Assembly (NCBI GenBank): GCA_006503475.1
Contig: RSEH01000296.1
Span: forward strand, 1 to 53,345
DNA length: 53,345 bases
Reading direction: 5' to 3'
From: Stentor roeselii
Lineage: Eukaryota; Ciliophora; Heterotrichea; Heterotrichida; Stentoridae
The notes beneath the pieces were generated by a model. That model did not search any database and was not told the DNA's origin. It was given only the letters and a program-made list of their open reading frames with translations. The stretch's first letter is position 1. Each line of letters begins with the position of its first letter. The position numbers were made by a program, and so were the translations under genes. Below, one piece after another: positions 5,085-53,209 of this stretch.

Positions 5085-6492
5085 GAATATAATAATTAGA
5101 TAGAGATTATTGATATTTTTAGTTTGAGAATTGTAAATTGTCTCAAAGTATAATTATCTAAGTCATAACTAACTATTCTATTGACATATTGTTGCTTGCT
5201 TCATCAATAAATCAATTAAAAGCATCGTAGAATGAAATCGAAAGAAACTAAGGGAAAGTCTTTGAGTTTTAATAAACTATCTTAACAATAAACTCACAAT
5301 TATAGCTAAAGAATTAAATATATATAAATTACAGCAAATACAGAAAATACCAGCATTTAAAATAGATATCTATATTCATCAATGTCTCCTAATAATATTA
5401 AAAAGGATTTCATAATATTTCAATCAAATTTTAGGATTTCAATAAAGTTTATATAACTTATTAAATTGAAATAAATATATCAAAGTTATCGATTTACTAT
5501 CAGATTGCTTTCTACTTACTTACTATATCTGAATATTTTACTAAAAACATACTTCAAAAATTTAAATTAATAGAAACTTTTACCTGAGATAAACTGAATT
5601 ACTCATTTTTACAATATGGGGAAAAAATAACGTAGAAAATTTAAGATACAAAAAATAGTTGAGCAACACTTATGTTTAATATAGTTCAACTGGTGAATTC
5701 TTTTAGAAAATGAGAATTATCCTTTATGCCATTGAGAGAACAAATCAAGGTATTGGAAGTAGCCTTATCTGTAAATGAATCCATAAAAACATGAGTTGAT
5801 GTAAGAAGCCGTCCTAATCTTTTGAAAACTTGATTAATTTTAATTTCAGATATTGATATTAGGAATCCTTTGCCTCCTGCTTTCATTTTATAAACTAAGT
5901 TTGTAAGGTCAGAGCGAGGGTTAAGACTCGTAAGTGTAAAATTATACCATTACTGTTATGGTAGAAATAGTCAAGTTTCCAATTATTACCTACCCCTTAT
6001 ATGATAAGGCATCATCCAATCTTCCTTTTTATATATTTCATGTCTAATAAAAAATATTTTACTTTATAAAAGCTGAAAAACTATAATTTTTCTAGTATTA
6101 TCAAACTAATTGACAAAAATTTATTTGTTGGAATTTGGATAAAACAGTGTATAAAATGATAAACTATTTTATGTTTAAATACGATAGAAGAAAATTTTTC
6201 CCTAAATAGAGGCTTTATGGATAAAGCAGCTTCAAACCTTCATCGAAAACATATTTGAAATCTTAATAATTAAATTCAAATCTCACTTTTCAACTATGAA
6301 AGCTAATTAAAAATTCCCTAAATTTCAAACTTTATATAATATCTCAACGATACTAAAATAAAACTCAAAAACCATTATTCAGCAACTCCAAAAGCCAAAA
6401 AAATCCCATTTCCAAACCATATCAATCAAAAATCCAACTCTCAAAAAAAAACTAAAAAACTCAATTTCACTACTTCTAAATAATTATCCTAT
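5085..6492. other. AT-rich intergenic stretch
   Basis: About 1.4 kb without an intact gene. It holds one minus-strand open fragment at 5686-5886 (listed separately). The right end, about 6360-6480, becomes strongly C/A-rich on the + strand and almost G-free. I see no RNA gene or repeat array. Confidence 0.5.
5686..5886 (-). pseudogene. Short open fragment, possibly decayed gene
   Basis: A minus-strand frame of 66 codons begins MKAGGKGFLISI and ends in TGA. The same frame stays open about 25 codons further upstream of the ATG. More protein-like sequence lies beyond that in other frames, interrupted by stops. The amino-acid make-up is ordinary, not low-complexity. It looks like the end of a broken gene, but a tiny real gene or chance cannot be excluded. 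I recognise no family. Confidence 0.2.
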
Positions 6493-7050
6493 CTAAGCAT
6501 TGTAGTCGACAGACCACAGATCATTATCATCAGAGTGACCAAAGCAAGTAACTTCTTGTTGATGGCTATGAGTATGATGTCCAGGATGAGAATGCAGATG
6601 ATGATGAGTCAAAACATGAGTAAGTCTGACCTGATGTTCAACTCTCCAAGGATGATTAGGTTCCGCATGAACGACTTCAAGTCTCCAGTTATCATTATCA
6701 TCTCCAATGCCATGCTCTCCAAAAGCAGTGACTTCTTGTTGATGACTCGCTGGAGAAGTAATGCCTGAGTGACTATGAAGGTTGCGTCCTGTTAAAACAT
6801 GTTCCAAACGAACCACATGATGATTCAACACTGGAGTCCCGATAAGGGCATTGAATCGGTTATCGCTATGAGGACCTTTTACGATCCACCAGTCATTATC
6901 GTCTCTCTCATGGAAACAAGTCACTTCTTGCTGGTGAGAACCTGTGGTGTAGTTTATTAAATGTGAATGAAGAGCATGTCCTGTCTTCACATGTCTGAGT
7001 TTTACAGGAACTCCGTATCTGACAACGTGGGGATCTCCAAAGTGAGCCAT
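6493..7050 (-). CDS. SDF2-like MIR-domain protein, apparently without signal peptide
   Basis: This 185-residue protein is built from three MIR motifs. Each has a V-R/K-L-x-H-V-x-T-G/H-x-x-L-H-S-H segment, then SHQQEVT(C/A)F, then DDND-x-W. The repeats run at about residues 8-60, 70-128 and 135-182. This is the beta-trefoil of stromal-cell-derived-factor-2 and the MIR modules of protein O-mannosyltransferases and IP3 receptors. Family members usually carry a signal peptide and an ER-retention tail and work with ER chaperones. Here the protein starts MAHFGDP and ends VDYNA, so neither is visible and a cytosolic role is possible. The third repeat is very His-rich (HHHLHSHPGHHTHSH). The ATG is well placed and no upstream exon was found. 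Confidence in the fold is high, in the function low. Confidence 0.85.
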   Translation of the reverse strand: MAHFGDPHVVRYGVPVKLRHVKTGHALHSHLINYTTGSHQQEVTCFHERDDNDWWIVKGPHSDNRFNALIGTPVLNHHVVRLEHVLTGRNLHSHSGITSPASHQQEVTAFGEHGIGDDNDNWRLEVVHAEPNHPWRVEHQVRLTHVLTHHHLHSHPGHHTHSHQQEVTCFGHSDDNDLWSVDYNA

Positions 7051-7413
7051 TTATAGTCACATATTTTTCAAATTAAAAGGACTTTGGAATATTCACCGAA
7101 AGATTACTATTTATGCAATGGGTTTGGGTGAAGGTTGAGAAGTTTTGATGGGTGGATTTTAATCATCTTGAGATTTTGATCTGATTTAAGGAAAATTTTT
7201 TTTGAGGGGGATTCAAGGTGTTCTGTATTGCATAAGAAGTCATTTCTTCAACAGGCTTTCTTTAATTTTAAAGAGCGATTGAAGTTCTTGATTCTTGGAT
7301 AAAATGATATTTGTTATATAGCCCTTCTAATAAAGTCACAAAGTCCTATTTATTTCTAACCTTTAAATCTAAAATTACCAGGCAAGCAACCTTAAATATT
7401 CATTTTCATATAA
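7051..7413. other. Intergenic stretch between two minus-strand genes
   Basis: About 360 bp. The first 200 bp, upstream of the MIR gene, are T/G-rich on the + strand and so C/A-rich on the coding strand, as at other 5' flanks here. Around 7300 the composition changes to C/A-rich on the + strand, running into the 3' end of the kinase gene. No gene or RNA is recognised. Confidence 0.5.
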
Positions 7414-8543
7414 TTAAGTATACTCACAATCCACAACTTCAATATTATCTCCAGAACTCGGAGCCGCATAAGCTGAAGTCCCAGCACATGTCTTCACCCA
7501 AATATGACTCAACACCTGAGAAGCCGAGACCCTTCTCTCCACATCAGGGTTCAACATCGCTAAAATCAAATCCTTACAACTTCTAGAAACAAAATCAGGA
7601 ACATTAAACTCTCCAGCAGTGATTTTCTCAAAGACCCTTTTTTCACTTTTACTATTAAAAGGAAAAGCGCCAGTGACAAGAACAAAAAGCAAGACTCCAG
7701 CAGCCCAGATATCAACAGGGGGTCCAAAAAACTCATGTTTTGCGATGATTTCAGGAGCCATATAAGTAGGCGACCCACAAAAAATAAGAGCTTTTTTATT
7801 ATTAGCGAAGCAAGTCGCGAATCCAAAGTCAATCAACTTGACATTAAAACAAAGGTCAAGTAAAACATTTTCTAATTTAATGTCACGATGAACAACATTC
7901 TTCGAGTGACAATACAAAAGTGCAGTCATGATCTTAGTGAAAATTTCACAAGCTTCATTTTCCTGAAGACGTTTCATTGCCTTGGCAGTGACATGGTTAT
8001 TTAAAGATATTCCTTTAACATACTCCATCACAATGTACAAGTTGTTCTTTCCATTAATCTCTTCATAGAACTTGACGATGTTATCATGGTCGATCTTCTT
8101 CAAGATCTTTATTTCTCTCATCACGTTCTTTCGAAGGGCAGGGTCTTCCAAGTCCTTCTTTCTATAAATCTTTATCGCGCATTTTTGACTTGTGGACTTG
8201 TGAGTCGCCAGTTTCACTGTCGCGTAAGAGCCTCTTCCGATGTCTGACCAAATGTGGTAGTTTTCCAAAGCGTCCATCTCAAGCTGCACTTGACTTGACA
8301 GGTCTTTGCAAGGAATGATGCAAGCTTTAGCTCGTGGACCGAAAGGGCCAAAAGTGCTGAAAGGAAGAAAAGCTGCATTTGAACTGATTCCTCCTTTTAA
8401 AGAATTTCGAGGTGAGGGAAACTTTACCTTGATTGGTGAGTCTTTAGGAGTTATCATCTTCGCCATGTAAGTTTCGGTGTCGTCACTTTTTGAGTTGGTG
8501 TCGATTGCTGATAAAGTCTTTCTTTCTGTGTAGGTGTTCATTA
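7414..8543 (-). CDS. Ser/Thr protein kinase, CAMK/AMPK-like
   Basis: A complete kinase domain fills most of the protein. It has the glycine loop GRGSYATVKLA, the VAIK-type lysine in CAIKIYRKK, the catalytic loop HRDIKLENVLL, DFG as DFGFAT, an activation segment ending GSPTYMAPE, and DIWAAGVLLFVLVTGAFPF, which is typical of the CAMK group (SNF1/MARK/CDPK-like). About 95 residues precede the domain, and only about 30 follow it. There are no EF-hands, so it is not a CDPK, and no C-terminal KA1-type domain is visible. The frame also opens at 8562 (MLVLVFI...), but I prefer the ATG at 8543 (MNTYTERK) because the extra residues are an odd hydrophobic run. The substrate is unknown. Confidence 0.85.
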
Positions 8544-8673: not shown

Positions 8674-9978
8674 ATGCTGCGAAGAGCTGTAAAGCGATTT
8701 TTCAGCAAAGAAGAAATAAACATCGTCATCCAAAAACTCAACCTGGGCTCAACAGTGACAAAAGTTTCCTTTTCTGAAGGTGTTGCTGACATCCAACTAA
8801 AACTTGACCAGCAGTACCGTCAGAACCGAGCTTCTCTGATCAACAACCTGAAATCTCTTCCTTCCATAAAAGACGTGAAAATCTCAGTCGCGCCAGCAGA
8901 GCAGAAGTCAAAAGACTGGAAACACTTAAACTCCGTGAAAAACATTATCGCTGTCGCCAGCTGTAAAGGAGGAGTCGGAAAATCAACAGTCGCTGTGAAC
9001 CTGGCTTACAGCATTTCAAAACTCGGGTTTAAAGTAGGGATTTTTGATGCAGATATCTTTGGACCTAGTCTTCCGACACTGGTTTCAACGAAAGGACACT
9101 TGGAAAGTCCAGCAGATGACCCGAAGTCGATAATTCCGATGGAATACGCAGGAGTCAAGCTGATGTCTTACGGATTTGCAAGCAACAATAAAAAAGCAGT
9201 TTTTAGAGGACCGATTATTTCTGCACTTACGCAACAGTTGGTCTTTAACACCCTGTGGGGCGAGTTGGACTTTCTTATTCTTGACACTCCTCCGGGAACG
9301 GGCGATATTCAGATAACTTTATGCCAGGAACTTCCGATTTCAGCGTCAGTCATTGTGACAACTCCTCAAAAATTGAGTTTTGTTGATGTTGTGAAAGGAA
9401 TTGAAATGTTTGATGACCTTAAAGTACCCACTGTAGCTGTTGTTGAGAATATGTCGTATTTTAATTGTGGAAAATGCAAAGAATTGCATAGGCCTTTTGG
9501 GATTGGCTATCGGAATATGCTTGTAAGTCAGTATGGAATTAAGAACTCTTATGAACTCCCCATGCACCCTGACTACTCCAAATACAGCGACTCTGGCACT
9601 CCAGTAGTTTTAGTTCTACCTGAACAGTCAGAACTCGTGCAGAAGTTTTCTCGAATGGCAGTTGAAGTAGTTGAAGAAACCAAACTAATTAAAAATTCAA
9701 CAAAACCTTCAGTTCTTTACGACGCTAAAATCGGTAAAGTCATTTTAGAGCGTGAAGGCAAAAGGAAAGAAATCGACCCTTTTCATTTAAGAAACAACTG
9801 CAACTGTGCAGGGTGCATTGACGAGTTCTCTGGTCAAAAGATGTTCCGAGCTGAAAGCATTCCTGCTGACGTCTACCCAATCAGAATGGAGTACAAAGGG
9901 AACTACGCAGTTGCTGTTGTCTGGTCAGATGGCCACAGGTCCTCTCTTTATCCTTTCGCGCAGTTAGAAGTAGTCTAG
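8674..9978 (+). CDS. HCF101: HCF101-type Mrp/NBP35-family Fe-S P-loop ATPase
   Basis: The 434-residue protein has three parts. Residues about 12-75 form a MIP18/DUF59 domain. Residues about 90-335 form the Mrp/ApbC ATPase with the deviant Walker A KGGVGKST (98-105), FDADIFGPSLPTL, DTPPGTGD and the CxxC metal ligands CGKC (C265, C268). The C-terminus is a DUF971 domain with LRNNCNCAGC and VVWSDGHRSS. That order is the HCF101 architecture, known from plastids as a carrier or assembly factor for [4Fe-4S] clusters. A ciliate has no plastid. The N-terminus MLRRAVKRFFSKEE is basic and amphipathic, suggesting mitochondrial import (inference). The last codons and stop lie in the first unit of a 48-bp tandem repeat shared with the convergent SNAPC3 gene. 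Confidence 0.9.
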   Translation: MLRRAVKRFFSKEEINIVIQKLNLGSTVTKVSFSEGVADIQLKLDQQYRQNRASLINNLKSLPSIKDVKISVAPAEQKSKDWKHLNSVKNIIAVASCKGGVGKSTVAVNLAYSISKLGFKVGIFDADIFGPSLPTLVSTKGHLESPADDPKSIIPMEYAGVKLMSYGFASNNKKAVFRGPIISALTQQLVFNTLWGELDFLILDTPPGTGDIQITLCQELPISASVIVTTPQKLSFVDVVKGIEMFDDLKVPTVAVVENMSYFNCGKCKELHRPFGIGYRNMLVSQYGIKNSYELPMHPDYSKYSDSGTPVVLVLPEQSELVQKFSRMAVEVVEETKLIKNSTKPSVLYDAKIGKVILEREGKRKEIDPFHLRNNCNCAGCIDEFSGQKMFRAESIPADVYPIRMEYKGNYAVAVVWSDGHRSSLYPFAQLEVV

Positions 9979-10107: not shown

Positions 10108-10940
10108 TCTGAAGAACTCGAGTTTAGAGACTCTAAACAGTTTTCACACATATAAATGTAAGGCACTGCCAACACCTGGTCCTTCATCACTATAAACTTC
10201 GCATGGAAACGGTCACAAATCTCACAAGTTCTTCTTTTTATCTTGCAAGAAAAGGTTTGGAACGGGTAATGCTCTTCACACTGAGGGTCCTTGCGGTTTA
10301 TCAGACGAATGTCAGATACGACCATGTCGTGTTGACACATTGTTCGATGCAAGTAAGTGTAAAGTACTCCGACTTCTAAATTTAGTTCATTGATCCTTGT
10401 TTTTAGGTTTTTCGTTCGAAAGTCTTTAAAGGAAAATGCAACTTTTTCACTTTCTTGACCAAAACTACAGAAATTTGCGAGACATTGAATTGACTTGTGA
10501 AGGTCTTCTAAAGTTTGATGTTCGGTTAAGAGCCACTCTTGAGTTCTGAACTTGTGGACTGGGTGGTAAAAGGTGAAGGTTAAGAGAAGGGTGTCTGAAC
10601 TTAGAGGGATGTTGTTTGGAAATGGGATTTTTTTTTTTATTGAGTTTTTTTCGTAGGTTGCGTCTTTGTTTATTGAGATGAATTGACTGAATGGCTTTTA
10701 CGTGAAGGACTTTAAAGAGGTGGAAGGGAGTTCAGGTAGATTTATGTTCATTTCGTTGGCTTTAGATATGATATCGACACTGTCTTCTTCTATCAGATCA
10801 TCAACTATTTCTGCAATAGTCTCTTTAACAATAAAATCATGCTTTCTAATAATCAATTCCTGAGCAGAATAATCTTCATCAGGCACAATGGACATCAAAT
10901 TTTGCTGAGCTCTCAACAATATATGTTTCTTATTAATCAT
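10083..10940 (-). CDS. SNAPC3: snRNA-activating protein complex subunit 3 (SNAPC3/SNAP50)-like, two exons
   Basis: Exons 10702-10940 and 10083-10686 join across a 15-nt intron to give 280 residues. The C-terminal half matches the SNAP50 family: YHPVHKFRTQEWLLT, then LYTYLH..C.HDMVVSDIRLI, a zinc-finger-like CEIC...C.NC pair, and a final YPYLYD. SNAPC3 is the conserved core subunit of the complex that binds the proximal sequence element of snRNA gene promoters. The zinc finger is a hallmark of the subunit. The ATG lies only 8 nt after the stop of the upstream same-strand gene. A second in-frame Met at residue 16 is an alternative start. The 3' end lies in the 48-bp repeat. The family call is firm, the exact start less so. 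Confidence 0.8.
10687..10701 (-). other. 15-nt spliceosomal intron in the SNAPC3 gene
   Basis: On the minus strand it reads GTAAAAGCCATTCAG. Phase 2: the exon ends ..TTCAC and resumes T-CAA-TTC. Unspliced, the frame hits TAA directly after the first intron base. Removing the 15 nt joins two open frames of one recognisable protein. Confidence 0.85.
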
Positions 10941-10948: not shown

Positions 10949-13252
10949 CTATTTTCTAGCCTTGGCCTTTTTGAACTTCCCCTTTTTCTCAAACTTTCTG
11001 ATATCTTCAATATTAAACCCAACTGGGTCAATAATCAAGTGATCCCTAAGCAATTTCTCAACATTCTTCTTAATCGCAAAGTCAAAAAAGCATGACTTTA
11101 AAGTATTTTCCTGCAAATTCCTGCCACTATTATTGATTTCTTCAGCAAATCTAAATAACCCTCACTCAGAAAAAGTTGAACAATTTTGAAAAATCTGGCA
11201 AAGTTTAATTTGTTTTCTTTGATATTCTTCCCAGTCCTGAATTAAAAAAGCAAGAATTTCTTCCTTGTCAACTTGAATTTCTTTGCACTTTTCAATATGA
11301 GCAGCTGAAAACTTTTCAAGCACTGCTGAAGTTTTCAAGATTTCTCCTCCAAAATAATTAACCAAAGTCGTGATTTCTGAATCTTTCATCCAAATGTTTA
11401 GTTTGGACTTGACCCAGTCGACGAAGGTGCTGCTTGGGACTGAATAATGATTACTGAAACCTTCTCTTTTACTGTCTAGGCTGTCTAGATGGAACTTTAG
11501 AGGCTTTTTGGTCTTTTCGAAGGCGAAGTAAAATCTTGAAACTAACACCCAAGTGTTTTTTTTTATATCTGAAGGAACTTCGCAGGTGTAGGTCAATCGG
11601 GAGAGGATGCTTTGGACTTGTAACTGATGATTTGGAAGGATTGATTGAAGAGTTTCTATTGCTTTGAATAAGGGAATGTGGTTGTTTGATGTTTTGCCTT
11701 CTATTGATCCTAAACATGAACTGATCTTTAAAAGGACTAATTCGAAGTTTTTGAATAATTTATGCGGAAAACCGAAGAGTCTTGAGAAGAATTTCGATTT
11801 TTGACATGTTGGGTGAAGAAGAACTTGACCTGTTTTTTTCATGAAGTTGAGAATTTCTGATTTTGATGGAAGACGGTCAACCAGAAATCTTCCAAACTGC
11901 ACCAAAAACACTTCATCACCATTGCAATCCTCCAGAGTGGCCATTAAATACTGCATAACAAGATCTCTAGAAACCAAGTTATCAGGTTCTCCAAGACTAT
12001 AAAACAAGTTCTTCGAAAGAATAGGAACCTTAAGTTCAGGAAAGCGATTATCAGGTAAAGTAACATCAGTCTGTACAAGAGTCAAAGAAGACTCAGGTTT
12101 TCCATCAAAGTTCTCAGCAAGGCTCATGACATGAGAAATTCCAGAAAGTGCAGCAACTTGTTTATGTTGTTGATCTTCAGTTTCACTGATATACGCGTCA
12201 AGTTTTTTTAGTATCCTCGTCATTTCAATGCAAGACTTGTCTCTATTAGTTCCTTCTAAAAGTTCATTCATTCTTTCATCCCTTTCATGAATCATCTGCT
12301 CCTTATTAGAAAGATTAGAACTAAGTAACTTGATAGTTTCACTCATTTTTTCAATCTTTTTATCAGCTTCTTCTCTTTGAAAATTTAATTCATTTTGAAG
12401 TTTTCTTACTTTTTCCTTAGCATCTATATCGATTTCCTTAACCTTTTCCTTCATCTTCTTAGTCAAGTCAATAACAATCTGCTCATGCATGATCAAAGCG
12501 TTATCAATGAGTTTAACAATAATCCTCCACAACATCTCTAAAATCGATGCTTCATCATCATTTTCATTTACTTTCAACCCAAGCAAAACATGTCTAATGA
12601 CCCGATTATATTCTTGTAAAATCTTCAAAAACTCTCCACTTGACAAGTCTTTCAACTCATCAGGACTAGTCCTAAGCAAATCATCGATTTTTTCCTTAAG
12701 TGAATAAAAATCGCCCATCATATTATGTTGACTCTGAATATTTTTCCCTTTAATCACTTCATAATTCAACTCCAGGTCAAATCTCAAAGGATACAAAATT
12801 CTGATACTCTGCAAGAAGTCTTGAATCTCATTCGTTGAAGTCTGATTCGCCATGTCAAGTTTTTCACTACTTCCTTCATTTAAGTTAAAAAGATTTCCTG
12901 ATAAGATCCGAGAACCTTTATAAAGTCTTTCAACTGACTTTTCCTGGTAGTACAAATCTTGACTCAGTTTCTTGCTTCTATGTCCAGGTCTTTCCCCAGA
13001 TCGAGTTACGACTGAAGGTTCGCCGTAAGGCGAACTGGCAGGTCTATAGCTTCTGGAACTAGGAACTTTTTCATTAAGTTTCGTAAGGCCTTTTGAAGCG
13101 ACTTTAACAGGAGAAGAGTACTTTAAAACTGAAGAGGCTCTGTAATCTCTGAGTTTCTGCAGAATGTCTTGTCCTGGTTCTTGCATCAAGTCAGGAGTTT
13201 TACATTCCGCTATTCTTTGAGCATTTTTTAACAGAGATTTGGGTCTGGACAT
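10949..13252 (-). CDS. Coiled-coil protein of unknown function, two exons
   Basis: Exons 11166-13252 and 10949-11150 give 762 residues. The N-terminal ~200 residues are basic, Ser/Pro-rich and probably disordered (MSRPKSLLKNAQ..., SSPVKVASKG). A long coiled coil follows at about residues 270-410, rich in K/E heptads such as KKMKEKVKEIDIDAKEK. The C-terminal 350 residues are predicted helical with no motif I recognise, ending in a Lys-rich tail (KKGKFKKAKARK). I chose the ATG at 13252. An upstream Met at 13273 would leave only 6 nt to the divergent gene's ATG at 13280. The frame stays open further but then overlaps that gene. Cytoskeletal or ciliary roles are common for such proteins, but that is a guess. 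Confidence 0.75.
11151..11165 (-). other. 15-nt spliceosomal intron
   Basis: On the minus strand it reads GTGAGGGTTATTTAG, phase 2. Unspliced, the frame stops at TGA two bases into the intron. Spliced, the frame continues 66 codons to TAG at 10949-10951. Confidence 0.8.
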
Positions 13253-14235: not shown

Positions 14236-15417
14236 TTAAATCTCTTCATCAATTTTTTGCTCTAACTCGACTGAAAGTTGTTCCTGGAACTCATCAGCGA
14301 AGAAGTTCGAAATAAAAGAACAGGTCGATGAAGTGTTTCCCATGATCAAAGTATCAATTTTTTCTTCATACCCGATGAAAGAAACTCCGAATTTCCCTTC
14401 CAGTCGAAAGATGATTTTTTTTAATGGGATGAATGAAATGTTAGAAGAGGTCATTTTTACCTCGGCAACCACTGCGGAACCGTCGGATGAGCCGAGGACT
14501 AGGAAGTTGGAATCGGGTCTTTCGACTACCAAGGCTTGCATTATCACTTGGGGGTACTTCTCGAGTTTGGGAAGAGTTAATTGAAGAAGTAACTCGCAGG
14601 TCAGAAGTGACCAGATGTAGATACCGGAGGACTCTGAACTTATGGCTACTAATAGGTTTGGTCTTTCGATTAGTCCTATTGATAGACAAGTACCGACAAA
14701 TGCTAGCGTTGAGGAACAGGACTTGGATGATGAGGCGTCTGGTATGTAAAGTTTTAAAGGATTGGTTTCCAGTTTGATTGGCTTGCTGGTTTCAGGGTTT
14801 TCGACGTACCCTTCGAATCCAACAATAACTTTTCTATGTTTAGACGAATAACAAATAGTACTAACAGGAGGATCTTCATTTTCAACTCCAAATACAAACT
14901 GAGGATTTGCAACTTCAGTATGCCAAACTTTAACAACTCCAGACTGATACCCGACATAAATAATCTCAGGAGCAACAGAAATCATTTTAAGTACCCGGTC
15001 CTTCTTATCATTTAACCCAGGCAGTACATGAGTAAGTCCAAATCTTTTTTCCAAATTCAAAGTATACGGTTCAATCACTGCAAAGCCTCCATTAGACTCC
15101 GAAATAATAATCTGAGGACTTGAAAGACTATCCCGAGTGAAAACTGAGTTTAAAATCGTTTGTCCATGACTCGGTCTATACCCAGTGTGTCGCTTTTCGC
15201 CAGTCAGCAGGCAAAAGAGCAACACAACATTAGAAGTAACAACAACTGAACTGAAAAGTCTGCCAAAAGGATGAGAAATCGAGTTGTCAGGGTACAAAAC
15301 ATAACACCCAAGCACGAGTCTATTCGAAGAAGTCTCTATTAACGAAGTCGCTTCTAGTTTTCCAACAATAGGAACACCCAGTTTTTTGTTAATCTTTTTC
15401 ATTCCTTGATTCCCCAT
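14236..15417 (-). CDS. WD40-like beta-propeller protein
   Basis: The 393-residue protein shows propeller-type repeats: VIYVGYQSGVVKVW-like strands (IIYVGYQSGVVKVWHTE), LLVAISSESSGIYIWSLLTCELL and FLVLGSSDGSAVVAEVK. These are the usual Gly/Ser-Asp turns with closing W. Four or more blades can be discerned. I chose the ATG at 15417 (MGNQGMKKINKK), whose Gly2 makes N-myristoylation possible. The longer frame from 15459 would overlap the divergent gene at 15435. The start codons are 17 nt apart with TATATAAAG between them. The partner complex cannot be told from the sequence. Confidence 0.75.
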   Translation of the reverse strand: MGNQGMKKINKKLGVPIVGKLEATSLIETSSNRLVLGCYVLYPDNSISHPFGRLFSSVVVTSNVVLLFCLLTGEKRHTGYRPSHGQTILNSVFTRDSLSSPQIIISESNGGFAVIEPYTLNLEKRFGLTHVLPGLNDKKDRVLKMISVAPEIIYVGYQSGVVKVWHTEVANPQFVFGVENEDPPVSTICYSSKHRKVIVGFEGYVENPETSKPIKLETNPLKLYIPDASSSKSCSSTLAFVGTCLSIGLIERPNLLVAISSESSGIYIWSLLTCELLLQLTLPKLEKYPQVIMQALVVERPDSNFLVLGSSDGSAVVAEVKMTSSNISFIPLKKIIFRLEGKFGVSFIGYEEKIDTLIMGNTSSTCSFISNFFADEFQEQLSVELEQKIDEEI

Positions 15418-18100: not shown

Positions 18101-18243
18101 GTTTATTGTGAAGTAGTTAAGAATTAGGTGTTGTTGATTTTTTCCACATTCCATAATCAAAACTCAACATTTCCTTCAAGCATAAAAACCTCCCCTTAAC
18201 AACATTTCCTAAAAAAAATCCAAAACACCTAACATAAATTATC

Positions 18244-18620: not shown

Positions 18621-19352
18621 CTAGAAAGGTTTAAACGTATTCAGATAAGCATAGCGAGAAAAAACCACGAAAAGCTTTCGATACCAGACAAATTGAGAGT
18701 TGTGAGTCGACATTGCCTTCCATGCGAGGAAAGGGTTGAAGTTGATCACTGCGAATTCTGACCTGCTTGAAAAAATTATGTCGAAAAGGCCGATGTACTT
18801 TCGAAAGAGACTTGTTGATTCTAAGGACCACATCTGAATTGATTTGAATGAGGATCGGTGAGAGGATAAGCTTTGGTAAAGGGAAATGTGGTTTAAGTGG
18901 CCTGATACTCCGTAATCGTCGAAAGTTAGGATGCAGTTGATTTCGTGGGTTGATAAGTAGGTTGAAATTGCTTTTGAAACGGAAGAAGAACTCCATGTGG
19001 AGGTCATGCTGTCTGGAAATTCTTCATCGTTTAGGATTGTTATTTCTTTTAGAGAAAGAAGTGAAGAGACTTGATTTAATTCTTTTTCTCTTACTTTGCC
19101 GAGACCGGATGAGTTACCGTTTGTTAGACATAGAAGGGAGATCTCAGAACCTTTGAAGTAGTTTAAGAATGGGATGAAAAACATTGACTCGTCGTCTGGG
19201 TGAGCGATTATTAGAAGGATTTTTTTACCGTTGATGTGCTTTTCGAAGTCTTTTGAGGAGAAGAATAAGGCTGTTAGGAAGATGAAAGCTATTTGGCTCA
19301 GAATGAGCAGCCACTTGAAATAAAATAAATATTCCAGCCATTCAAGCAACAT
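18621..19352 (-). CDS. PIGL: PIG-L, N-acetylglucosaminyl-phosphatidylinositol de-N-acetylase
   Basis: The 243-residue protein begins with a membrane anchor at about residues 5-30 (YLFYFKWLLILSQIAFIFLTALFF). It continues with the deacetylase core: IIAHPDDESMFF (metal-binding HPDDE), LCLTNGNSSGLGKVREKEL, and GVSGHLNHISLY with the catalytic His. PIG-L removes the acetyl group from GlcNAc-PI, the second step of GPI-anchor synthesis, at the ER. I chose the ATG at 19352 because the frame upstream overlaps the exonuclease gene and lacks family similarity. Only 10 nt separate this ATG from that gene's TAA, and 8 nt follow before LAMTOR2. GPI-anchored surface proteins are abundant in ciliates. Confidence 0.9.
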   Translation of the reverse strand: MLLEWLEYLFYFKWLLILSQIAFIFLTALFFSSKDFEKHINGKKILLIIAHPDDESMFFIPFLNYFKGSEISLLCLTNGNSSGLGKVREKELNQVSSLLSLKEITILNDEEFPDSMTSTWSSSSVSKAISTYLSTHEINCILTFDDYGVSGHLNHISLYQSLSSHRSSFKSIQMWSLESTSLFRKYIGLFDIIFSSRSEFAVINFNPFLAWKAMSTHNSQFVWYRKLFVVFSRYAYLNTFKPF

Positions 19353-19362
19353 ATTTAATCTA

Positions 19363-26085: not shown

Positions 26086-26119
26086 GATAGTAATCATAAC
26101 AATAGATCTAAGGCCATAA

Positions 26120-30135: not shown

Positions 30136-30249
30136 TGAGAAGAGCTATTATAAATCATCCATAATTAAAAATTATATAAATATCTAATTCAATCATGAAT
30201 AATGATTATATCTGAATTATTAATTATAAATTTTTGAGCAAGAGCAACG

Positions 30250-44418: not shown

Positions 44419-44480
44419 CTTAAAATCGAAATTAAATTTTTTCACAATTTCCTTAAAATCGAAATTAAATTTTTTCACAA
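44419..44480. repeat. Tandem duplication (33-bp period) at a convergent gene junction
   Basis: CTTAAAATCGAAATTAAATT plus TTTTCACAA is present at 44419-44447 and again, identical over 29 bp, at 44452-44480. The right copy contains the TGA stop and last codon of the minus-strand LRR gene; the left copy repeats them downstream. It parallels the 48-bp triplication at 9964. Confidence 0.9.
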
Positions 44481-47054
44481 GTTCGCCTTCTTCTCTTTAA
44501 ACTCTTTCTGAGCATTAAGCGGTAGTAGATCAATAAGTCTAGGAATAGTATTCGACAAGATGACTGAAAGATGAGTCTTCTCATCCGGCTTCTCTTTAGA
44601 AACCGGGTCAGGGACCTTTGCCATGTCAGCGACTCTGCTGAAAGCTTCAAGAAATTCAACGAAAGTCATCTGATAATGACGGTCAACGTCGAGTTCTTGC
44701 ACCTGGGTCATCATTGCGAGGTTAAAAGCCAGACAAATCTCTCTTACAGTGAAACTTTCATTGATCAGGTCAGAAGACATGACGATGCTTTCAAATTCAG
44801 ATAAACACATGAATGGCTTTTGGCCTGGCTTTACTTTTCGCACTGAGTATCTTCCGTAGATGTTTTTTAATAGAAGACGGTGAGATTTAAGTACCAAGTC
44901 GCATGGCTCGTTTATATAACGATCGAAACGCCATTTGTCTGATATTAGATGAGAAAGGTGAGGGAAGATGTTTTGTTCCATCAACATTTGAACTGATTCT
45001 ACGTAGGTCACTGCTTGGCCGGACTTGTAGTATTTGTCTAATGCGATTCGAACTAGGATCTCCATGAATTGGAAACGGACTAAAGCGTTTGGGGGACTTC
45101 GGGGGTTACGGACTTCAGAGTAAAGAGCACCTTTCATGTGGAAGTCTAAGTCGGAAAGACGGAAACTTGAATCTACTATTTTTGCCTCGTTGCACAGGTC
45201 CGTAAAAACCATCTGTCCAATAGACCAGATTTCTCCAGAAGGACTAACAGACGAGTAATACTTATAAATTTCTTTGATAGTTTTATAAATCCCAGAAAAA
45301 TAATTTTTAATAGCCTGCAATTCATAAGGATCCTTAACAACCCTAGGTATCCTCGAATGTGCCCAGTCATACTCAAAGCACTTAGCAATTAAATCCGAGT
45401 TATCAAATCGATAGTCCTTAAAAATACTAATAGGAATTCCCCATTCTTTCTTCTTAGCAATATGCAAGTACTTCCCTCGAGGCACTCTCGGTTTCAAAGG
45501 AGGTCCAGAATCAACAGAGAGCCAATCAGGACCTTTTGGGTTATTTTCAATTAAATTCACCTGATTAATTTCAAGTTTAACAGTTTTAGCATCATGTACC
45601 TGGAACTCTTTTTCAAAAACATCAGGCAAAGCCTGAAACAATTCTTTCGCGTTAAGTTTTAATTCACCATCATGAGTAAAAACAAAGTGAAACTTTCCAG
45701 GAGGACACATTTTCAAAAGCCGATACTTTCCATCTTCCTTTTCCATAAGTTCTCCATCAAACTCTTCAAATCCAAAGTGAATATAAAGCGGATCCACCGC
45801 ATCACCTTCCCATAAGAACTCAACTTGATTCCATCTTTCACAAAGCCAGCAGTTGCTACAAGGTCTCCAGGAAAGATACTTGTTAACTCTACTAATTCCT
45901 AAAATTCTTTTAAACCGATGGGCAGATGTGGGTCTTCTCTCGTCATTCGGTAAAAGAAAGCCAAGATCATCAACAGTTCCGAAATTTCCACTTACGTGAA
46001 GACCGAGAAGTTCATGATTATGACTTAAGCCCTGCCCGATTGTTTCGATGTCTGTTGTAGAGAAGGCGTTGTGGGAAATGTCAAGGTGGATTAAAGATTT
46101 GTTTTGTTTTAATGAATCGCCTAAGTCTTTTGAACAGTTTGACTCACTTGGAGAGGATAATGCGTTCCAGGACAGGTCGAGAACTCGTAAAGATTTGTTG
46201 AAAGATAATGATTTGCATAACTTTTTCGCTTTTTCTCCTCGGATGTTGTTCCAGTGAAGGTCGAGACGTTGGATTGATTGGTTTAATTTTAAGAATTTTG
46301 ATAGTTGCTTGTTGCCTTCTAAGAGATTTTTTGCTAGGTTTACTTCTAAAATGCAGGCACTTCGGACTAAGGCTTTGCAGACTATTTTGCAGTTTTCGTC
46401 TTTCATTTGGAGTCCTTCGAGTTTTAGGACTTTTAGGATTGATTGTCGGGAATTTATTATGCTGTGGATTTGGGTGAAGTTTTGCTTGTGAAGCTTGTTG
46501 TTTGAGAAGTTTAGTTCAACCAGTTTCTCCGGAGAAATCTTATCCAAGATCCTCTTAGCTCCATTTTCAGTGAGTCGATTATCATTCATATCAAGTTTCT
46601 TAACAGGAATCCCACTGATTCCCTCAGAAAAAGCTTCAGCATAATTATCCCCCATTCCATACATGCCGATTTCAAATATATTCGTCTTTCCCTTGGCCTT
46701 GACAATTCCCATAGGAACAGGCGATAGATGTTTTTCATTAACTTTCTGCAAGTAAGAGTTAATCGGTGTGTTTTGCGATTCAAAAGACAAACTCTGAAGT
46801 CGATGAATGTTTCTAAAACTATCAATATAGTCCATTTTCGCTCTAGTCCCAACCAAAACATCAATTTTTGATCCTCTAGGCAAGGACCTTCCCCTAGATT
46901 CAGGAAACATCTGAATCGACTGAACCTCCGGGTCCGTTAAAGTCGATTTCACCTTGACTTGAGTCCTTTCAAAGATCGAAGACGGAGGAACTTCACTTTT
47001 TGACTTCCTTTTCGTATTCTTCGGGCGATTCGGAGGTTTTTTTCCTTTTCCCAT
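44475..47054 (-). CDS. Leucine-rich-repeat protein with C-terminal EF-hand-like region
   Basis: The 859-residue protein starts with a basic tail (MGKGKKPPNRPKNTKRKSK). After a linker, ribonuclease-inhibitor-type leucine-rich repeats run from about 150 to 350 (LNFSNNKL, LEVNLAKNLLEGN, RLDLHWNNIRGEKA, VLDLSWNALSS, HLDISHNAFS). A Cys-containing segment (CSNCWLCERW) leads into a beta-sandwich-like stretch VEFLWEGDAVDPLYIHFGF. The helical C-terminal part includes EF-hand-like sequence (ELDVDRHYQMTFVEFLEAFSRV). Such LRR-plus-C-terminal proteins occur in ciliated protists, and a ciliary or cortical role is a reasonable guess. Complete, no introns; ends in TGA. CK1 lies 45 nt upstream on the same strand. 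Two strand-skew resets fall inside it (near 45,200 and 46,510). Confidence 0.8.
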   Translation of the reverse strand: MGKGKKPPNRPKNTKRKSKSEVPPSSIFERTQVKVKSTLTDPEVQSIQMFPESRGRSLPRGSKIDVLVGTRAKMDYIDSFRNIHRLQSLSFESQNTPINSYLQKVNEKHLSPVPMGIVKAKGKTNIFEIGMYGMGDNYAEAFSEGISGIPVKKLDMNDNRLTENGAKRILDKISPEKLVELNFSNNKLHKQNFTQIHSIINSRQSILKVLKLEGLQMKDENCKIVCKALVRSACILEVNLAKNLLEGNKQLSKFLKLNQSIQRLDLHWNNIRGEKAKKLCKSLSFNKSLRVLDLSWNALSSPSESNCSKDLGDSLKQNKSLIHLDISHNAFSTTDIETIGQGLSHNHELLGLHVSGNFGTVDDLGFLLPNDERRPTSAHRFKRILGISRVNKYLSWRPCSNCWLCERWNQVEFLWEGDAVDPLYIHFGFEEFDGELMEKEDGKYRLLKMCPPGKFHFVFTHDGELKLNAKELFQALPDVFEKEFQVHDAKTVKLEINQVNLIENNPKGPDWLSVDSGPPLKPRVPRGKYLHIAKKKEWGIPISIFKDYRFDNSDLIAKCFEYDWAHSRIPRVVKDPYELQAIKNYFSGIYKTIKEIYKYYSSVSPSGEIWSIGQMVFTDLCNEAKIVDSSFRLSDLDFHMKGALYSEVRNPRSPPNALVRFQFMEILVRIALDKYYKSGQAVTYVESVQMLMEQNIFPHLSHLISDKWRFDRYINEPCDLVLKSHRLLLKNIYGRYSVRKVKPGQKPFMCLSEFESIVMSSDLINESFTVREICLAFNLAMMTQVQELDVDRHYQMTFVEFLEAFSRVADMAKVPDPVSKEKPDEKTHLSVILSNTIPRLIDLLPLNAQKEFKEKKANL

Positions 47055-48110: not shown

Positions 48111-48374
48111 TGTTTTTATGGAAGTTTTTAGATTGGGTTTAGGGTTTTTTTTAATTTTTGGAATAAGGATGGGTGGAAGGGGAATTGGATTCGACATTAT
48201 TTTAGAAGTTTTTTATCATTTTTACTTTGGAGTATTTTATGAATGGGAAGGTTGGGATTGGTTTGTTTGAAGTTGGGATGGTGTTTGAAGGGTTTTGTTT
48301 GGATGGGTTTTTTGGAATTTGGATTTTATTTACGGGTTTGGATTTATTGGATTTTTTGTAGAGTTTTTGATGCT

Positions 48375-49652
48375 TTACTTTGTTAATTTATGTAAAATCA
48401 CAGAACATAATGATGAACCCAAAAAACTACTGGCCAACAACCACAAAGTTGCAAACGATCCATACTCCTTCTGCACATGTCCAGTTAAAATACTTCCAAA
48501 GACCCCAGTAACCAATCCAATGCCACTTAAAAATCCATTCATAAATCCTCGAGTTTCAGTACAATAAATCTCTTGAGAATAAGAATAAAGCAAGCTAAGT
48601 CCAGTCATCATAAAAAGATTAATCAAGCACGATACAAAGCTAGTAGCCCAGATATCAAGATCCATAGAAAGCATTAAAATAAGTAATCCACTGATACAAA
48701 AGCACAAACTCCTAACAGTAACCGACGAATCTTTACTAGTGATCCAATAAGAAGCAATTAAAATCCCAGGTATTCCTGAAAGTTGCTGAAAAAAAATAAC
48801 CGCATACTGCACATGCAACTCATTAACCGACAACAACTGCGGCATAAAATAAAAAAGTGTGCTATAAGGAAAGTTCGTCAAAAGGTACTCCAAAGACAAC
48901 AAAACCGTAACCATTAAAAAATCCTCATCTTTATTCGATTTCCCTTCTTCCTTCTCAAAGCTCTGAGTATGAAACTCTCCTGAATTCAATTCAGCCATTT
49001 TCTGTAAAGTGCTTTCAAGTCTCAAGTCGCCTCTATCATATAAAAACATTGGACTTTCCAGTATAAATCCACGAAAGTAAGTCAAACAAGCACTGGTGAC
49101 AGTACCGACCCATAACAAGAACTTCCAAGCAGATATTTCGGACTGAACAATGACTTCAACTAAGAAAGCAGCGAAGACACTTAAAGAGACTCCGAAACTC
49201 CACCCGACACTGAGAAGGGTCAAAGAGTTGCTTTTGGATTGAGGAATGGATTCCATGAGAATTGTGTAAGCGATCACCATGTCGCCTCCGACTGAATAGC
49301 CGATTATGCACAGGCCTAGGTGAAATGTAAAGGAATAATGGAAAAAACAGAGAAAAATACCTCCTATTGTTGAAACCATTGCTGAGAATTGGAAGACTGG
49401 AGCTCGTCCGAGCTTTCCGACATAGAAAGATTGCGAAAAACAACCGATTAATGAACCGAGGTTTAAAGAGACTGGAAGAAGGAAGATTTCCCAGTACTCG
49501 CCGTCGTAATCTACCATTATCAGAGATGTCACTTCCATCCAGAGCGTTGCGAGAAGGATTGCCTAAGTTTTTAGTACCACTAAACAGTTTATGAAAAGAA
49601 ACTCTTGGTATTTGCCCCAGCCTATTTGTTCTAAGGCCCTGTTTATTATCAT
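48375..49652 (-). CDS. MFS transporter (SV2/sugar-transporter-like), two exons
   Basis: Exons 49578-49652 and 48375-49562 join across a 15-nt intron into 420 residues. Exon 1 gives the typical N-terminal cap ALEQIGWGKYQEFLFINCLV of SV2-like/organic-ion transporters (family pattern G-x-G-R/K-F/Y-Q). About 11-12 hydrophobic helices follow. After the second helix comes GKLGRAPVFQ, corresponding to the conserved D-R-x-G-R-R motif, and later YSVGGDMVIAYTILMESIP, like the family's GxGG...P.Y..E..P. A hydrophilic loop lies near residues 200-225. The substrate cannot be deduced. The second exon alone would start inside helix 1, so the intron call is well supported. Confidence 0.88.
49563..49577 (-). 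other. 15-nt spliceosomal intron in the MFS gene
   Basis: On the minus strand it reads GTACTAAAAACTTAG, phase 0. Unspliced, its last codon is an in-frame TAG. Spliced, it joins CTG-TTT-AGT-G... as TTA-GTG to GCA-ATC and completes transmembrane helix 1. Confidence 0.85.
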
Positions 49653-50947: not shown

Positions 50948-53209
50948 ATGTATGTTTATGGAGAGGTGGTAACTTATTTAATTGAGTTGAGTGATGGTTG
51001 GGTTAATTGGATGATTTATTAGGATTTTTAGAGAAATTTTAGGGTTTTAGATTAAAGAATTTCTGAAATTATGAAAATTTCTGGTTATTTATTTGTTGGT
51101 TATAAAATAATCGCATTTTTATGGAATATTCTGAAAATGATTTTTTTTTTATGAATTATGCTTTGGCAGTGAATATTACTAAGAAATAGAGAAAAAGCAA
51201 ATTTTATATTCTTCGTAATCGGATATAATAATTTATTGAAGACTAAGTCAGTGATTAAAGATTAGTATAAATGATTATCAGTTTTTTGTGTTTCTTTAAA
51301 TTCTTCATGATCAAATTCATCGATTATTAGCTTTTTCGATTAGCTCTAATTCCGTTTCTTCTGCTATTGGGCATGTATGATAAATCGAAGAACTAGGACA
51401 AACTGGGTATCCTGCAATTGTGCAACAATCCAACACTGAATCTGTTTAAATCAAATTCAACAACAGGAAAATTCATAATTTTTTTGTTATCAAAACTTAA
51501 ATAACAACATCGTAGGGTAAGCAGTATTCATAGTCACTTTTTTCTGATGGTGAAAAATTTGCATAGACAGATGCATAAGATTTGATAGGAATTGCATCAC
51601 AATTTTTTTTCATCACTCTTACTTTAAAATTTTTCTTTCGAATATTCGTTCGAAGTCAGGTCAATTATTACATGGGCAGCAGTGGCGATGATTCCTTGTA
51701 TGAATAGATTATCCCTATTCAAGGGTCAAGTTTCTTGATAATGAATCCAGTTCCACCCGACAGAAATTTAACTAAAAATTAGGGTCGATATTGGGAGGTG
51801 GTTGCAAATCAGTTGATTTGAAGTCTAAAGAGTTTGAAGAATCTATCCTCTTCGATATCAGGACATCACCGAATCCAGCTATCTTCATTTTATAATCGAA
51901 GAACATTTTTGTTACGGTATCTTTATTACAATAGTGAAATGAAATTTACATAAAAGCCTATATAAATACAGTGTTGATTGAAATCTAAAACTTTTTCATT
52001 AAACCTTAAAAAGATATGATGCAAACATTTGCTTAAGTATAAGAAGTGCAAAGCAGCATTTTTACTTTAAATTGAAATCAAATAATAATGAATACAAGAT
52101 AATTTTTATATGAAGCTAACGATTTGAACGAAGAAAAATATAAAGGAATGCCATAAGATTAGACTTACTTTAATATTTATCTTACATTTAAGTTTAGAGA
52201 CATAAAGAGTAATAGTTGAAACTTAATAATCCAGATTTTTGCAATCATTACATTTTTTGAATTCTTCTCTTATATATTATATCCTATTTGTAGTTTGACC
52301 AGTATATTTTGTTTGTTTGCTGCGAATAGCATTCGATTAATTTTGACCAATATAATTATAAAATTATTGAATATTTTTATTGTAATAACAAAGTTTTTAC
52401 TATAAAAATCCTTTTAAATCAAATATAATTTAAGGTATTAATTTTATTTGAATGCTCATCATCAACTATATATAAAATTATTGAAGAATACTAGAGATTT
52501 CATGTGAGTATGAAACTACCGATTCAGTTTATTTTTCCCGAATTATCTTTATATATCTTCAATAAAATAAATGAAGGTAGCTCAGGTGCCAGCGATTCTA
52601 CAATTTTAAAGTTCTTAGTTCTTTTTCTAAGAGATTTTTTTGAATTATTATTTTTTGGATGTACTTATTGTTTTCAATGATATCTGGATAGTAAGGACTA
52701 TTGAGGTAATATTTATTAAGGTATGCCAGAATTATCTTAGTCTTTATATTGTCCTTCATTAATTTTATCATTAATGGCGGATATTGATTTTGAATCTTAC
52801 TTAAATAAATATGACGATTCTTCTTTAGTATATTGGTAAATATTTACTCTTGTAGGATTCGTGTCATCTTTTTATAACCTTTTCATCTTGGGTACTCACT
52901 GACTAGTGTGCTCCTTGTTTAATCGTTATCTTTCTCATAATATTTATATAGCTTAGAAAGAGAGAAGACCTGCAGATTAGCTTTGGAATAGCCATCTAAT
53001 TTTATTAAGAATTGAATGAATTATTATAACTATATAAGAAACTATCAATTTTTTATAAATGAAATATTCAAGGAAAAGACTTTTGATATTTAAATTGATT
53101 ATATGCTATTTTATTATTAATTTTAAATATATCTTTAAATTTATGATATAAAAAATTATTAAAATAATAAAATATTTGATTATTCTTATAAAAAATTACA
53201 ATATAATAA
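50948..53209. other. AT-rich gene-poor stretch
   Basis: About 2.3 kb. It holds a frameshifted serine-protease pseudogene at 51317-51888 (listed separately). The rest is AT-rich without an intact gene. A minus-strand open frame at 53068-53253 is mostly low-complexity AT translation and is not taken as a gene. No RNA gene recognised. Confidence 0.55.
51317..51888 (-). pseudogene. Trypsin-like serine protease pseudogene
   Basis: An ATG at 51888 starts a 38-codon frame (MKIAGFGDVLISK...) ending in TAG. In shifted frames the text goes on as SGGTGFIIKKLD, then GIIATAAHVIIDL, then YANFSPSEK...YCLPYDVVI, and finally TIAGYPVCPSSS and a tail to TGA at 51317. TAAHV is the catalytic-His motif of trypsin/HtrA-type proteases, and YDVVI recalls the catalytic-Asp strand. 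At least four frame changes and stops are needed, and no 15/16-nt introns explain them, so it is a pseudogene. The catalytic Ser region is not visible. Confidence 0.55.

Follow-up and report, generated by a model that had tools for sequence, protein, structure and literature searches.

Sub-genic sawtooth of strand composition in Stentor roeselii, a possible footprint of recurrent germline breaks

Genes of the ciliate Stentor roeselii carry a sawtooth of strand composition in which C/A-rich sequence drifts to T/G-rich (a tooth) between abrupt TG-to-CA jumps (resets), also inside single open reading frames (ORFs). The sawtooth is real in the window, the whole stretch of DNA analysed (53,345 nucleotides, contig C226), where it spans positions 6300..51050 without belonging to either strand, as seen with a 200-bp composition table, a far-intergenic test and a reset caller. 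Domains of strand composition are known for replicons and for entire genes; one smaller than a gene shows that base choice is under the control of some local process over hundreds of bases. The pattern may well be, we tentatively propose, a DNA-level mutational footprint of recurrent germline breaks with strand-biased mutation on single-stranded 3′ tails.

A sawtooth in the window

Besides the window, the analysis covered stretches of three further contigs: C40 (200 kb), C339 (50 kb) and C45 (14 kb). Composition was followed along a keto axis (G+T minus A+C), raw jumps were scored with 200-bp half windows, and resets were called from synonymous sites within genes and from all bases elsewhere. 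Gene models were predicted in this analysis, and those below 450 to 1500 bp, depending on the test, were excluded from counts. The DNA has 15-nt introns and a heterotrich-type telomere repeat, and the closest named protein is from Stentor coeruleus, all of which bears out the ciliate origin assumed in an initial annotation. Among 120 long ORFs, 61 end in TAA, 45 in TAG and 14 in TGA; alternative codes, in which TAA and TAG encode Q or TGA encodes W, give longer and more numerous open frames, but we found no reason to adopt them.

That annotation had described the pattern from counts by hand, and all six are exact: 22 G/6 C at 17881-17940 and 0 G/17 C at 18181-18240; 14 G/0 C at 37801-37860 and 0 G/22 C at 37921-37980; and 13 G/4 C with T>A at 39721-39780 and 8 G/14 C with 29 A/9 T at 40081-40140. 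Eighteen of the 20 resets it listed were matched within 200 bp by our independent caller, which placed 25 resets in the window, but those at 22700 and 41640 were not called. Resets do lie within genes of both strands, as had been stated: 12 of the 20 are inside gene models, and 11 of these 12 keep a distance of 150 bp or more from both ends. The polarity is likewise the same under reverse complement, with TG-to-CA as the sharp edge (synonymous-site jumps and context test), and codon choice at silent sites tracks the skew along the synonymous-site tracks of long genes.

Many of the resets in the window, none of which is assigned a strand, interrupt genes. The caller placed resets at ~9553 (9503..9603, z 5.1) inside a NUBPL/ParA-like gene (8674-9978, +), at ~10792 (10742..10842, z 7.5) in the predicted first exon of a SNAPC3-like gene (10083-10940, −), at ~11869 (11819..11919, z 8.0) within gene model 11162-13252 (−; upper end 13273 in first-round models), at ~14818 (14768..14868, z 8.0) within gene 14236-15417 (−) and at ~19306 (19256..19356, z 7.4) within gene model 18621-21102 (−). 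A single ORF of 2,184 codons with leishmanolysin-like M8 and REJ domains (31204..37758, −) has internal resets at ~34699 and ~36391, the latter (36341..36441, z 8.3) lying ~1.2-1.4 kb inside the frame within the M8 domain. Two more interrupt ORF 38034..40442 (+), at ~38854 and at ~40018 (39968..40068, z 8.0), ~430 bp ahead of the stop, and a leucine-rich-repeat ORF (44475..47054, −) contains two, at ~45193 (45143..45243, z 7.6) and ~46516 (46466..46566, z 10.0), the strongest in the window.

Other resets mark gene boundaries. These are found at ~7414 (7364..7464, z 7.0), the 3′ end of a kinase gene (7414-8541, −) whose neighbour is at 6493-7050 (−); at ~18088 (18038..18138, z 8.7), the convergent 3′ junction 18100/18244; at ~26071 (26021..26121, z 6.4), the tandem junction of the RNase P p30 and phosphoglucose isomerase genes; at ~37933 (37883..37983, z 6.4), a divergent 5′ junction; and at ~48415 (48365..48465, z 6.1), the tandem junction of a kinase gene (47100-48197) and a transporter gene (48375-49538). 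The phosphoglucose isomerase gene (26120-27718) is a single clean tooth, with a forward fit of 17.5 and a reversed fit of −26.0.

Resets are one-sided in steepness

An excess of abrupt TG-to-CA over CA-to-TG jumps, the comparison set beforehand, is present in the ~317 kb, and the sawtooth was not refuted. On the raw keto axis at z > 5, the two signs number 5 vs 1 in the window, 14 vs 0 in C40, 1 vs 0 in C339 and 0 vs 0 in C45, where z > 4 gives 6 vs 0. Jumps on the purine axis at z > 4 are balanced, at 31 vs 29 summed (window 5/4, C40 19/21, C339 5/1, C45 2/3). The asymmetry is one of steepness, not of number: the whole-track caller found, in the four stretches, 54 resets vs 17 opposite events at z > 6 and 141 vs 128 at z > 4 (95 vs 119 when gene-internal), and at a low threshold (w = 250, z > 3) the signs are about equal (84 vs 96), because any ramp must return.

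Within genes, 35 TG-to-CA and 5 CA-to-TG jumps exceed z > 5, compared with 0.0 after shuffling of synonymous sites. A sign-flip test on the full synonymous score gave p = 0.00018 across 104 genes (window 0.017, C40 0.005, C339 0.042 and C45 0.50, the last from 2 genes only); restricted to four-fold sites, p ranged from 0.001 to 0.19 over nine settings, weakening with wide windows and large margins. In 39 of 53 genes the fit of a forward sawtooth was better than that of its reversal (Wilcoxon p = 1.2e-5), and two-fold sites left out of reset selection show the same step. The largest steps in silent keto skew reach 1.5-1.6 of a possible 2 between adjacent 150-300-bp windows.

Unit size and gene ends

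Fully internal units (n = 94) have a median length of 870 bp under a model that imposes a 300-bp minimum, and called resets lie a median of 1.6 kb apart, a figure that includes gaps left by missed resets. Teeth had been put at 1-2 kb, but the unit is nearer 1 kb. When gene ends are taken as unit ends, ramps fill units of 400-1500 bp. Units above 1.5 kb lose their skew over about 500-600 bp and are flat in between, a profile that missed resets could mimic. Held-out sites give a similar scale, with zero crossings ~500-600 bp either side of the reset and a mirror-image decay.

The density of resets, 0.77 per kb near stops and 0.59 near starts, falls to 0.46 within genes and to 0.02 in far intergenic DNA (one in 42.5 kb). 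The averaged gene starts C/A-rich and ends T/G-rich, with the same bias extending ~175 bp upstream and 100 bp downstream, and synonymous sites reset on average at tandem and convergent 3′ ends and at tandem and divergent 5′ ends. The sawtooth had been called independent of genes, which holds for teeth inside single ORFs but not fully, because genes on average start C/A-rich and end T/G-rich and resets are denser near gene ends. Gene boundaries as the sole cause were rejected, as internal resets persist 300-700 bp or more from gene ends. An apparent lack of resets at convergent 3′ junctions in the raw keto score (13 of 30) was not upheld at synonymous sites (convergent +0.101, tandem +0.096); because convergent 3′ ends also reset there, we do not claim a promoter-only origin.

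A dynein heavy chain in C45, a 12.4-kb open frame backed by Pfam domains along its length, has about nine resets at silent sites. Two kinases with 83% identical protein, L003 and L004, have internal resets at CDS 829 and 373, respectively, and a track correlation of 0.08, and a search for shared tooth positions between two dynein paralogs found none (r = 0.19, p = 0.18).

Base changes and neighbour context

At held-out sites within 300 bp of resets, C at pyrimidine two-fold sites goes from 0.25 to 0.64 and G at purine two-fold sites from 0.42 to 0.24. Both classes ramp across the whole unit, and C>T as the only mutation was rejected. At four-fold sites, GC and TA skew are correlated within genes (Spearman 0.37, 904 bins), and TA skew, about −0.10 over the 30 bp at gene starts, lies between +0.07 and +0.25 in the last 300 bp.

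The C/T shift depends on neighbouring bases in the same way on the two strands. Specifically, shifts by trinucleotide context on sense and, after reverse complement, antisense strands correlate with a Pearson coefficient of 0.92 over 16 contexts, compared with 0.32 (p = 0.23) for a same-strand control pairing; the test used held-out codons and 123 events, with resets taken from either codon half, so that those found in both count twice. The largest shift accompanies a 3′ G. Codon positions 1 and 2, with Leu, Arg and Ser left out, shift in the same direction (keto difference 0.060, se 0.021, 55 resets). The strand symmetry of the neighbour dependence, together with the slight movement of codon positions 1 and 2 in the same direction, favours a DNA-level origin, and the suggested origin in repair, replication or chromatin thereby gains ground. 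The reverse-complement-symmetric dependence and the differing teeth of L003 and L004 speak against codon or protein selection. Overall, the interpretation in the initial annotation is partly supported.

A possible footprint of germline breaks

Under the break reading, each reset would be a place of repeated germline DNA breakage. Trimming in the 5′-to-3′ direction would leave single-stranded 3′ tails on both sides, of the top strand on the left and of the bottom strand on the right, and on these tails the amino bases C and A could be damaged or deaminated and refilling could be error-prone. The strand running towards the break would slowly become T/G-rich and that running away C/A-rich over ~500-600 bp, and between sites ~1 kb apart the two decays would merge into a ramp. 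The breaks, their trimming and their placement in the germline are all inferred. Candidates for the break sites are meiotic hotspots (Spo11-type) and micronuclear junctions of eliminated sequences, with a slight preference on our part for the hotspots. Matches in the genome comprise one TP6A_N (Spo11/topoisomerase VI family), two Rad51-family and one uracil-glycosylase-family. As expected of such a footprint, the bias, measured in composition and not in mutations, is reverse-complement-symmetric on both sides of a point, and C and A are lost on the strand that runs towards it. Also in favour of the break reading, deamination of single strands at replication origins or of the non-template strand of genes predicts the opposite polarity. 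The same reading is favoured by a description of the micronuclear germline as lacking transcription (PMC6935857, in the part consulted). A bolder form is possible but doubtful: that the somatic genome is a written map of recurrent germline breaks, each tooth edge, intragenic ones included, being a long-lived micronuclear break site, and that break-tied mutation, not replication or transcription, sets the silent bases across most genic DNA.

The main difficulty for the break reading is that long intergenic stretches are toothless. Far intergenic DNA (18 segments of at least 700 bp, 27.3 kb) shows no teeth (rms z 1.31, skew −0.20), and the window's own segments at 1-2862, 5285-6292, 29384-31003 and 51148-53345 show no sawtooth; this counts against the reading because purely positional mutation should mark such DNA too, unless it is break-poor or turns over fast. 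Several smaller observations point the same way. The context G[C/T]T shifts in the wrong direction on both strands, codon positions 1 and 2 lack one-sidedness in their jump distribution despite the mean shift at resets, resets show no local GC peak (a possible trace of gene conversion), and no convincing motif emerged from 48 resets. Among the gene sets of the sign-flip test, the kinase loci (10 genes) taken separately lack one-sidedness (p = 0.84), and 3 of 53 genes of at least 1.5 kb have only the unevenness expected by chance (ratios 0.96-1.08), two of these three being AT-rich and close to a contig end or telomere.

The resets might instead be germline junctions of internally eliminated sequences and the teeth the macronucleus-destined segments between them, with skew beside insertions arising from leaky excisase cuts, hairpins, micronuclear chromatin edges or selection on segment ends. 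In the heterotrich Blepharisma, about forty thousand eliminated elements accompany a 41-Mb somatic genome, roughly one per kb, comparable with the 870-bp median internal unit. In the passages used here, ~70% of these elements are inside genes (PMC9942856), in keeping with the frequent intragenic resets. The differing reset positions of L003 and L004 are as insertions would give. However, far intergenic resets are nearly absent whereas Blepharisma elements are slightly depleted in genes (PMC9942856), and excision itself is somatic and not inherited, which makes this explanation rather unlikely in our judgement. Miniature replication domains would place initiation at resets and derive the ramp from a shifting share of rightward and leftward forks, resembling mammalian N-domains but a thousandfold smaller and with a leading-strand bias of the other sign. 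Ramps that fill 400-1500-bp units, strand symmetry and invariance under reverse complement suit this proposal, but random meeting of forks predicts a ramp across the whole of every unit, and those above 1.5 kb are flat in the middle. Moreover, it would be extraordinary for replication to initiate at every kilobase, and known leading strands have the opposite bias; we regard such domains as improbable.

Selection acting on the choice of codons or on the mRNA, through speed ramps, co-translational folding or G-poor and C-poor mRNA segments, would account for a signal that is strongest at silent sites and absent far from genes, and C- and A-ending codons are those decoded by Watson-Crick pairing. 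It is nonetheless very improbable given that the neighbour dependence crosses codon borders, codon positions 1 and 2 share the mean shift, flanking noncoding DNA has the same bias, the 83% identical kinases have different teeth and the dynein paralogs do not share theirs. A whole-gene skew of fungal type, C-biased 5′ and G-biased 3′ through mutation or repair tied to initiation and termination, with cryptic promoters or terminators at internal resets, matches the averaged gene profile with its flanks, the skew at every type of gene end and a pattern already described in fungi (PMC3315797). As a sole cause it is already contradicted by internal resets, such as the roughly nine in one dynein ORF and abrupt steps far from gene ends; with T and A moving here, unlike in fungi (PMC3315797), and the germline nucleus described as transcriptionally inactive (PMC6935857, in the part consulted), we think it quite improbable. 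Composition noise, gene-model errors or assembly are hardly credible as the source. Local composition does fluctuate in any genome, our gene models are predictions and the kinase loci lack one-sidedness, but shuffling yields nothing at z > 5, the forward fit prevails, the step recurs at two-fold sites unused for selection and Pfam domains confirm the dynein frame.

If tooth edges are germline breaks, somatic sequence alone would map breaks or eliminated-sequence sites in a nucleus difficult to purify, and break-repair-driven mutation in a silent germline would become testable. Codon-usage studies in such ciliates may take mutational teeth for selection.

Comparison with known systems

Strand-composition anomalies are known in ciliate somatic DNA: subtelomeric purine skew on the gene-sized chromosomes of Nyctotherus (PMC2633312), 3′ GC skew in Halteria (PMC7858049) and a ~50-bp bias in Oxytricha (PMC3558436). 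As excerpted, these reports concern the purine axis or chromosome ends and untranslated regions and do not mention repeated teeth in coding sequence; on the purine axis, jumps here are balanced. Among the matches listed in our searches of the open-licence PubMed Central literature on strand skew, on breaks and on ciliate genomes and meiosis, none describes intragenic teeth.

In mammalian N-domains, sharp jumps raise G and T along the strand, with falling ramps between them over hundreds of kilobases or more. Both systems have a sawtooth of GC and TA skew that is kept under reverse complement, but the teeth here are about a thousandfold smaller, lie inside single genes and have a sharp edge of opposite sign (TG to CA).

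Unicellular fungi show opposite GC skews at C-biased 5′ and G-biased 3′ gene ends (McLean and Tirosh 2011, PMC3315797). The coding strand is likewise C-biased at the start and G-biased at the end here, flanks and four-fold sites included, but the sections of that paper used here give a flat AT skew and one gradient per gene, whereas in S. roeselii T−A moves with G−C and a long ORF has several teeth, for example the C45 dynein and 31204-37758 (PMC3315797).

Human meiotic break hotspots have strand-asymmetric mutation, and on the forward strand it is the left side that carries the single-stranded tail (Hinch et al. 2023, PMC7615360). According to the portions of that study considered here, C>T is raised in CpG, where our largest shift is also with a 3′ G; the human data are rare mutations at known breaks, whereas ours are equilibrium silent-site composition at unmapped points; and some human mutation types peak 700-800 bp off centre, with a central 100 bp free of asymmetry, whereas the step here sits at the reset itself within resolution, with no visible asymmetry-free centre, which we count against the break reading (PMC7615360). 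The two have in common a kilobase scale, a symmetric arrangement around a point and mutation that affects C and A where the strand leads up to the break (PMC7615360). The polarity and the bases at resets match mutation beside human meiotic breaks, and we count this match in favour of a break footprint (PMC7615360).

Sequences and gene models

The analysis covered the window (53 kb), which is the entire contig C226 of the 44.39-Mb, 522-contig assembly, together with stretches of three further contigs (C40:1-200000, C339:50001-100000 and C45:85001-99000) and eight kinase loci, each about 3.8 kb long. The initial annotation had described a sawtooth of strand composition with six hand counts of bases, all of which were exact on recount. 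Gene calling used dynamic programming on codon usage with 15- and 16-nt introns and gave 30 models covering 73% of the window. Introns in the gene models are 15 nt (32 of 34) or 16 nt (2 of 34), the only lengths permitted. In 120 long open reading frames, the stop codons are TAA (61), TAG (45) and TGA (14). Reading TGA as tryptophan is unnecessary, as the read-through stops in 135 kinase-domain matches are all TAG or TAA and never TGA. For the phosphoglucose isomerase of the window, the closest named protein is from Stentor coeruleus (73% identity), and further relatives reach 78–79%. Repeats at the start of C40 are a permutation of CCCTAACA, which is likewise the repeat unit given in an article on Blepharisma (PMC9942806); the telomere repeat CACCCTAA forms the first roughly 74 bases of C40. 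Repeat unit, introns, stop codons and isomerase similarity together mark the organism as a heterotrich related closely to Stentor.

Two local repeats were noted in the window. A 48-bp unit occurs in three exact copies (9964-10108) that span the end of a NUBPL-like gene and run into the next gene. Short imperfect tandem repeats of 30–63 bp (28699-28887), T-rich on the + strand, lie within a minus-strand frame (28053-29183) that has no Pfam match and is below the length used for single-gene tooth tests.

Abrupt one-sided resets inside genes

Gradual drifts from C/A-rich to T/G-rich sequence (teeth) end in abrupt TG-to-CA jumps (resets) at silent sites deep within genes. Where the nearest gene end is 700 bp or more away, jumps at four-fold sites are one-sided (w = 300), with 0.71% of positions above +3 s.d. 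and 0.01% below −3 s.d. Jumps at codon positions 1 and 2 over the same distance from gene ends lack this one-sidedness. A score from all synonymous sites (w = 250) gave 55 internal resets versus 38 opposite, CA-to-TG events at z > 4, 35 versus 5 at z > 5 and 15 versus 0 at z > 6, where shuffles gave 1.2, 0.0 and 0.0, respectively. Of 53 genes of at least 1.5 kb, 39 were fitted better by a sawtooth model than by its mirror image (Wilcoxon P = 1.2e-5), with total gains of +592 forward and −130 for the mirror; shuffled sequences gave about −977 forward and −922 reversed.

The clearest case is an uninterrupted 12.4-kb dynein heavy chain frame on C45, recognised from DHC_N2, AAA_6 to AAA_9, stalk and C-terminal domains spread over its length. 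Its silent sites form about ten ramps, with the sawtooth model placing nine boundaries inside the frame, and the synonymous-site score places resets (z > 3) at CDS positions 580, 1861, 4384, 5416, 6670, 7360, 10228 and 11386. Several resets fall within conserved domains, at codons 1461 (AAA_6), 2223 (AAA_7) and 3795 (AAA_lid_11). Internal resets are also present in three frames of the window: an M8/REJ frame (31204-37758), a frame at 38034-40442 and a leucine-rich repeat (LRR) frame (44475-47054). Genome-wide, 21 of 28 DHC_N2 matches sit within open frames that run for at least 4,000 codons without a stop.

Averaged genes of at least 600 bp are C/A-rich at the start and T/G-rich at the end, with keto skew (G+T minus A+C) at four-fold sites standing at −0.17 over the initial 30 bp and reaching +0.24 by 60–100 bp before the stop. 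Flanks share the sign of the adjoining gene end (−0.13 to −0.17 up to 125 bp upstream, and around +0.10 over 75 bp downstream). Synonymous sites at 3′ ends are alike in tandem (+0.096) and convergent (+0.101) arrangements (s.e. 0.032 each), and those at 5′ ends are negative in tandem (−0.099, s.e. 0.031) and divergent (−0.052, s.e. 0.032) arrangements.

One-sided jumps were not found in far intergenic DNA (18 segments of at least 700 bp, 27.3 kb; r.m.s. z 1.31, skew −0.20). Among the 53 genes tested, those at window 3063, C40 449 and C40 48000 show no excess unevenness; the first two are AT-rich and close to contig ends. On C40, teeth are weak or absent in two AT-rich genes, at 449 and 10090.

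Reset positions can differ between close paralogs. Two kinases that are 83% identical (L003 and L004) encode only 45% of their identical residues with the same codon; their resets lie at CDS 829 and 373. Among 12 paralog pairs compared, tracks are correlated in seven (circular-shift P = 0.00), one of them L002 with L003 (r = 0.64) and several others single-tooth pairs, and not in five; we attribute such correlation to gene ends being resets. Between two dynein paralogs, the tracks show no agreement (r = 0.19, P = 0.18). Adjoining C40 genes at 103796 and 105219 share 298 identical residues, with a third, 86% identical copy alongside; this arrangement is a recent tandem duplication.

Resets are sharp and probably arise at the DNA level

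The step was confirmed at sites not used for its detection. Across 61 resets picked on four-fold sites, two-fold sites within 100 bp on each side change from 0.22 to 0.60 for C among pyrimidines and from 0.41 to 0.24 for G among purines, whereas the change at 64 opposite-sign events is gradual. For 52 resets detected from one half of the codons, the remaining half showed a change that was complete within about 100 bp, and a profile that crossed zero at about 500–600 bp to the left and right, as mirror images.

For each neighbour pair in held-out codons, we calculated the C-over-T log-odds shift, using pyrimidine-ending codons for the sense strand and purine-ending codons, with context reverse-complemented, for the antisense strand. 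Shifts on the two strands agree over all 16 contexts (Pearson 0.92), with 0.32 for control pairing within the sense strand alone. On either strand, 5′ neighbours rank C > A > T >> G and 3′ neighbours rank G > A > C > T. Codon choice would not be expected to follow such a rule across codon borders, and the agreement between strands favours an origin at the DNA level over one at the codon level. Over all loci analysed, G[C/T]T is the one context that clearly shifts the other way, by −1.59 on the sense strand and −1.00 on the antisense strand. Codon positions 1 and 2, excluding Leu, Arg and Ser, shift by 0.060 (s.e. 0.021) at 55 resets versus −0.028 (s.e. 0.028) at 38 opposite events.

Possible origins and comparison with known systems

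We interpret the teeth as products of a point-symmetric, strand-acting, neighbour-dependent process with a range of about 500–600 bp, which would deplete C and A on the strand whose 5′-to-3′ direction leads to the reset point. Origin firing and non-template exposure during transcription predict the opposite sign. The leading explanation is strand-biased mutation on single-stranded 3′ tails at recurrent germline breaks, and mutation spectra adjacent to human meiotic breaks, as described in PMC7615360, have the same polarity and base preference. The germline nucleus of ciliates is described as inactive in transcription (PMC6935857), and break repair could therefore have a large influence in it. 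The assembly contains matches to TP6A_N (Spo11/topoisomerase VI), Rad51-family and uracil-glycosylase-family proteins. Resets could instead be sites of eliminated sequences, a reading favoured by the density and intragenic share of such sequences reported for Blepharisma (PMC9942856, PMC9942806). The break and elimination models could both be true if germline cuts happen at these sites.

Among the open-licence full-text matches listed, none describes intragenic skew teeth, and the ciliate skews reported there involve chromosome ends or lie on the purine axis. The averaged genes resemble the gene-level skew profile reported for unicellular fungi (PMC3315797), although AT skew is flat in those fungi, unlike here. 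As a skew domain, the sawtooth has a scale and sign without a description in the open-licence literature searched.
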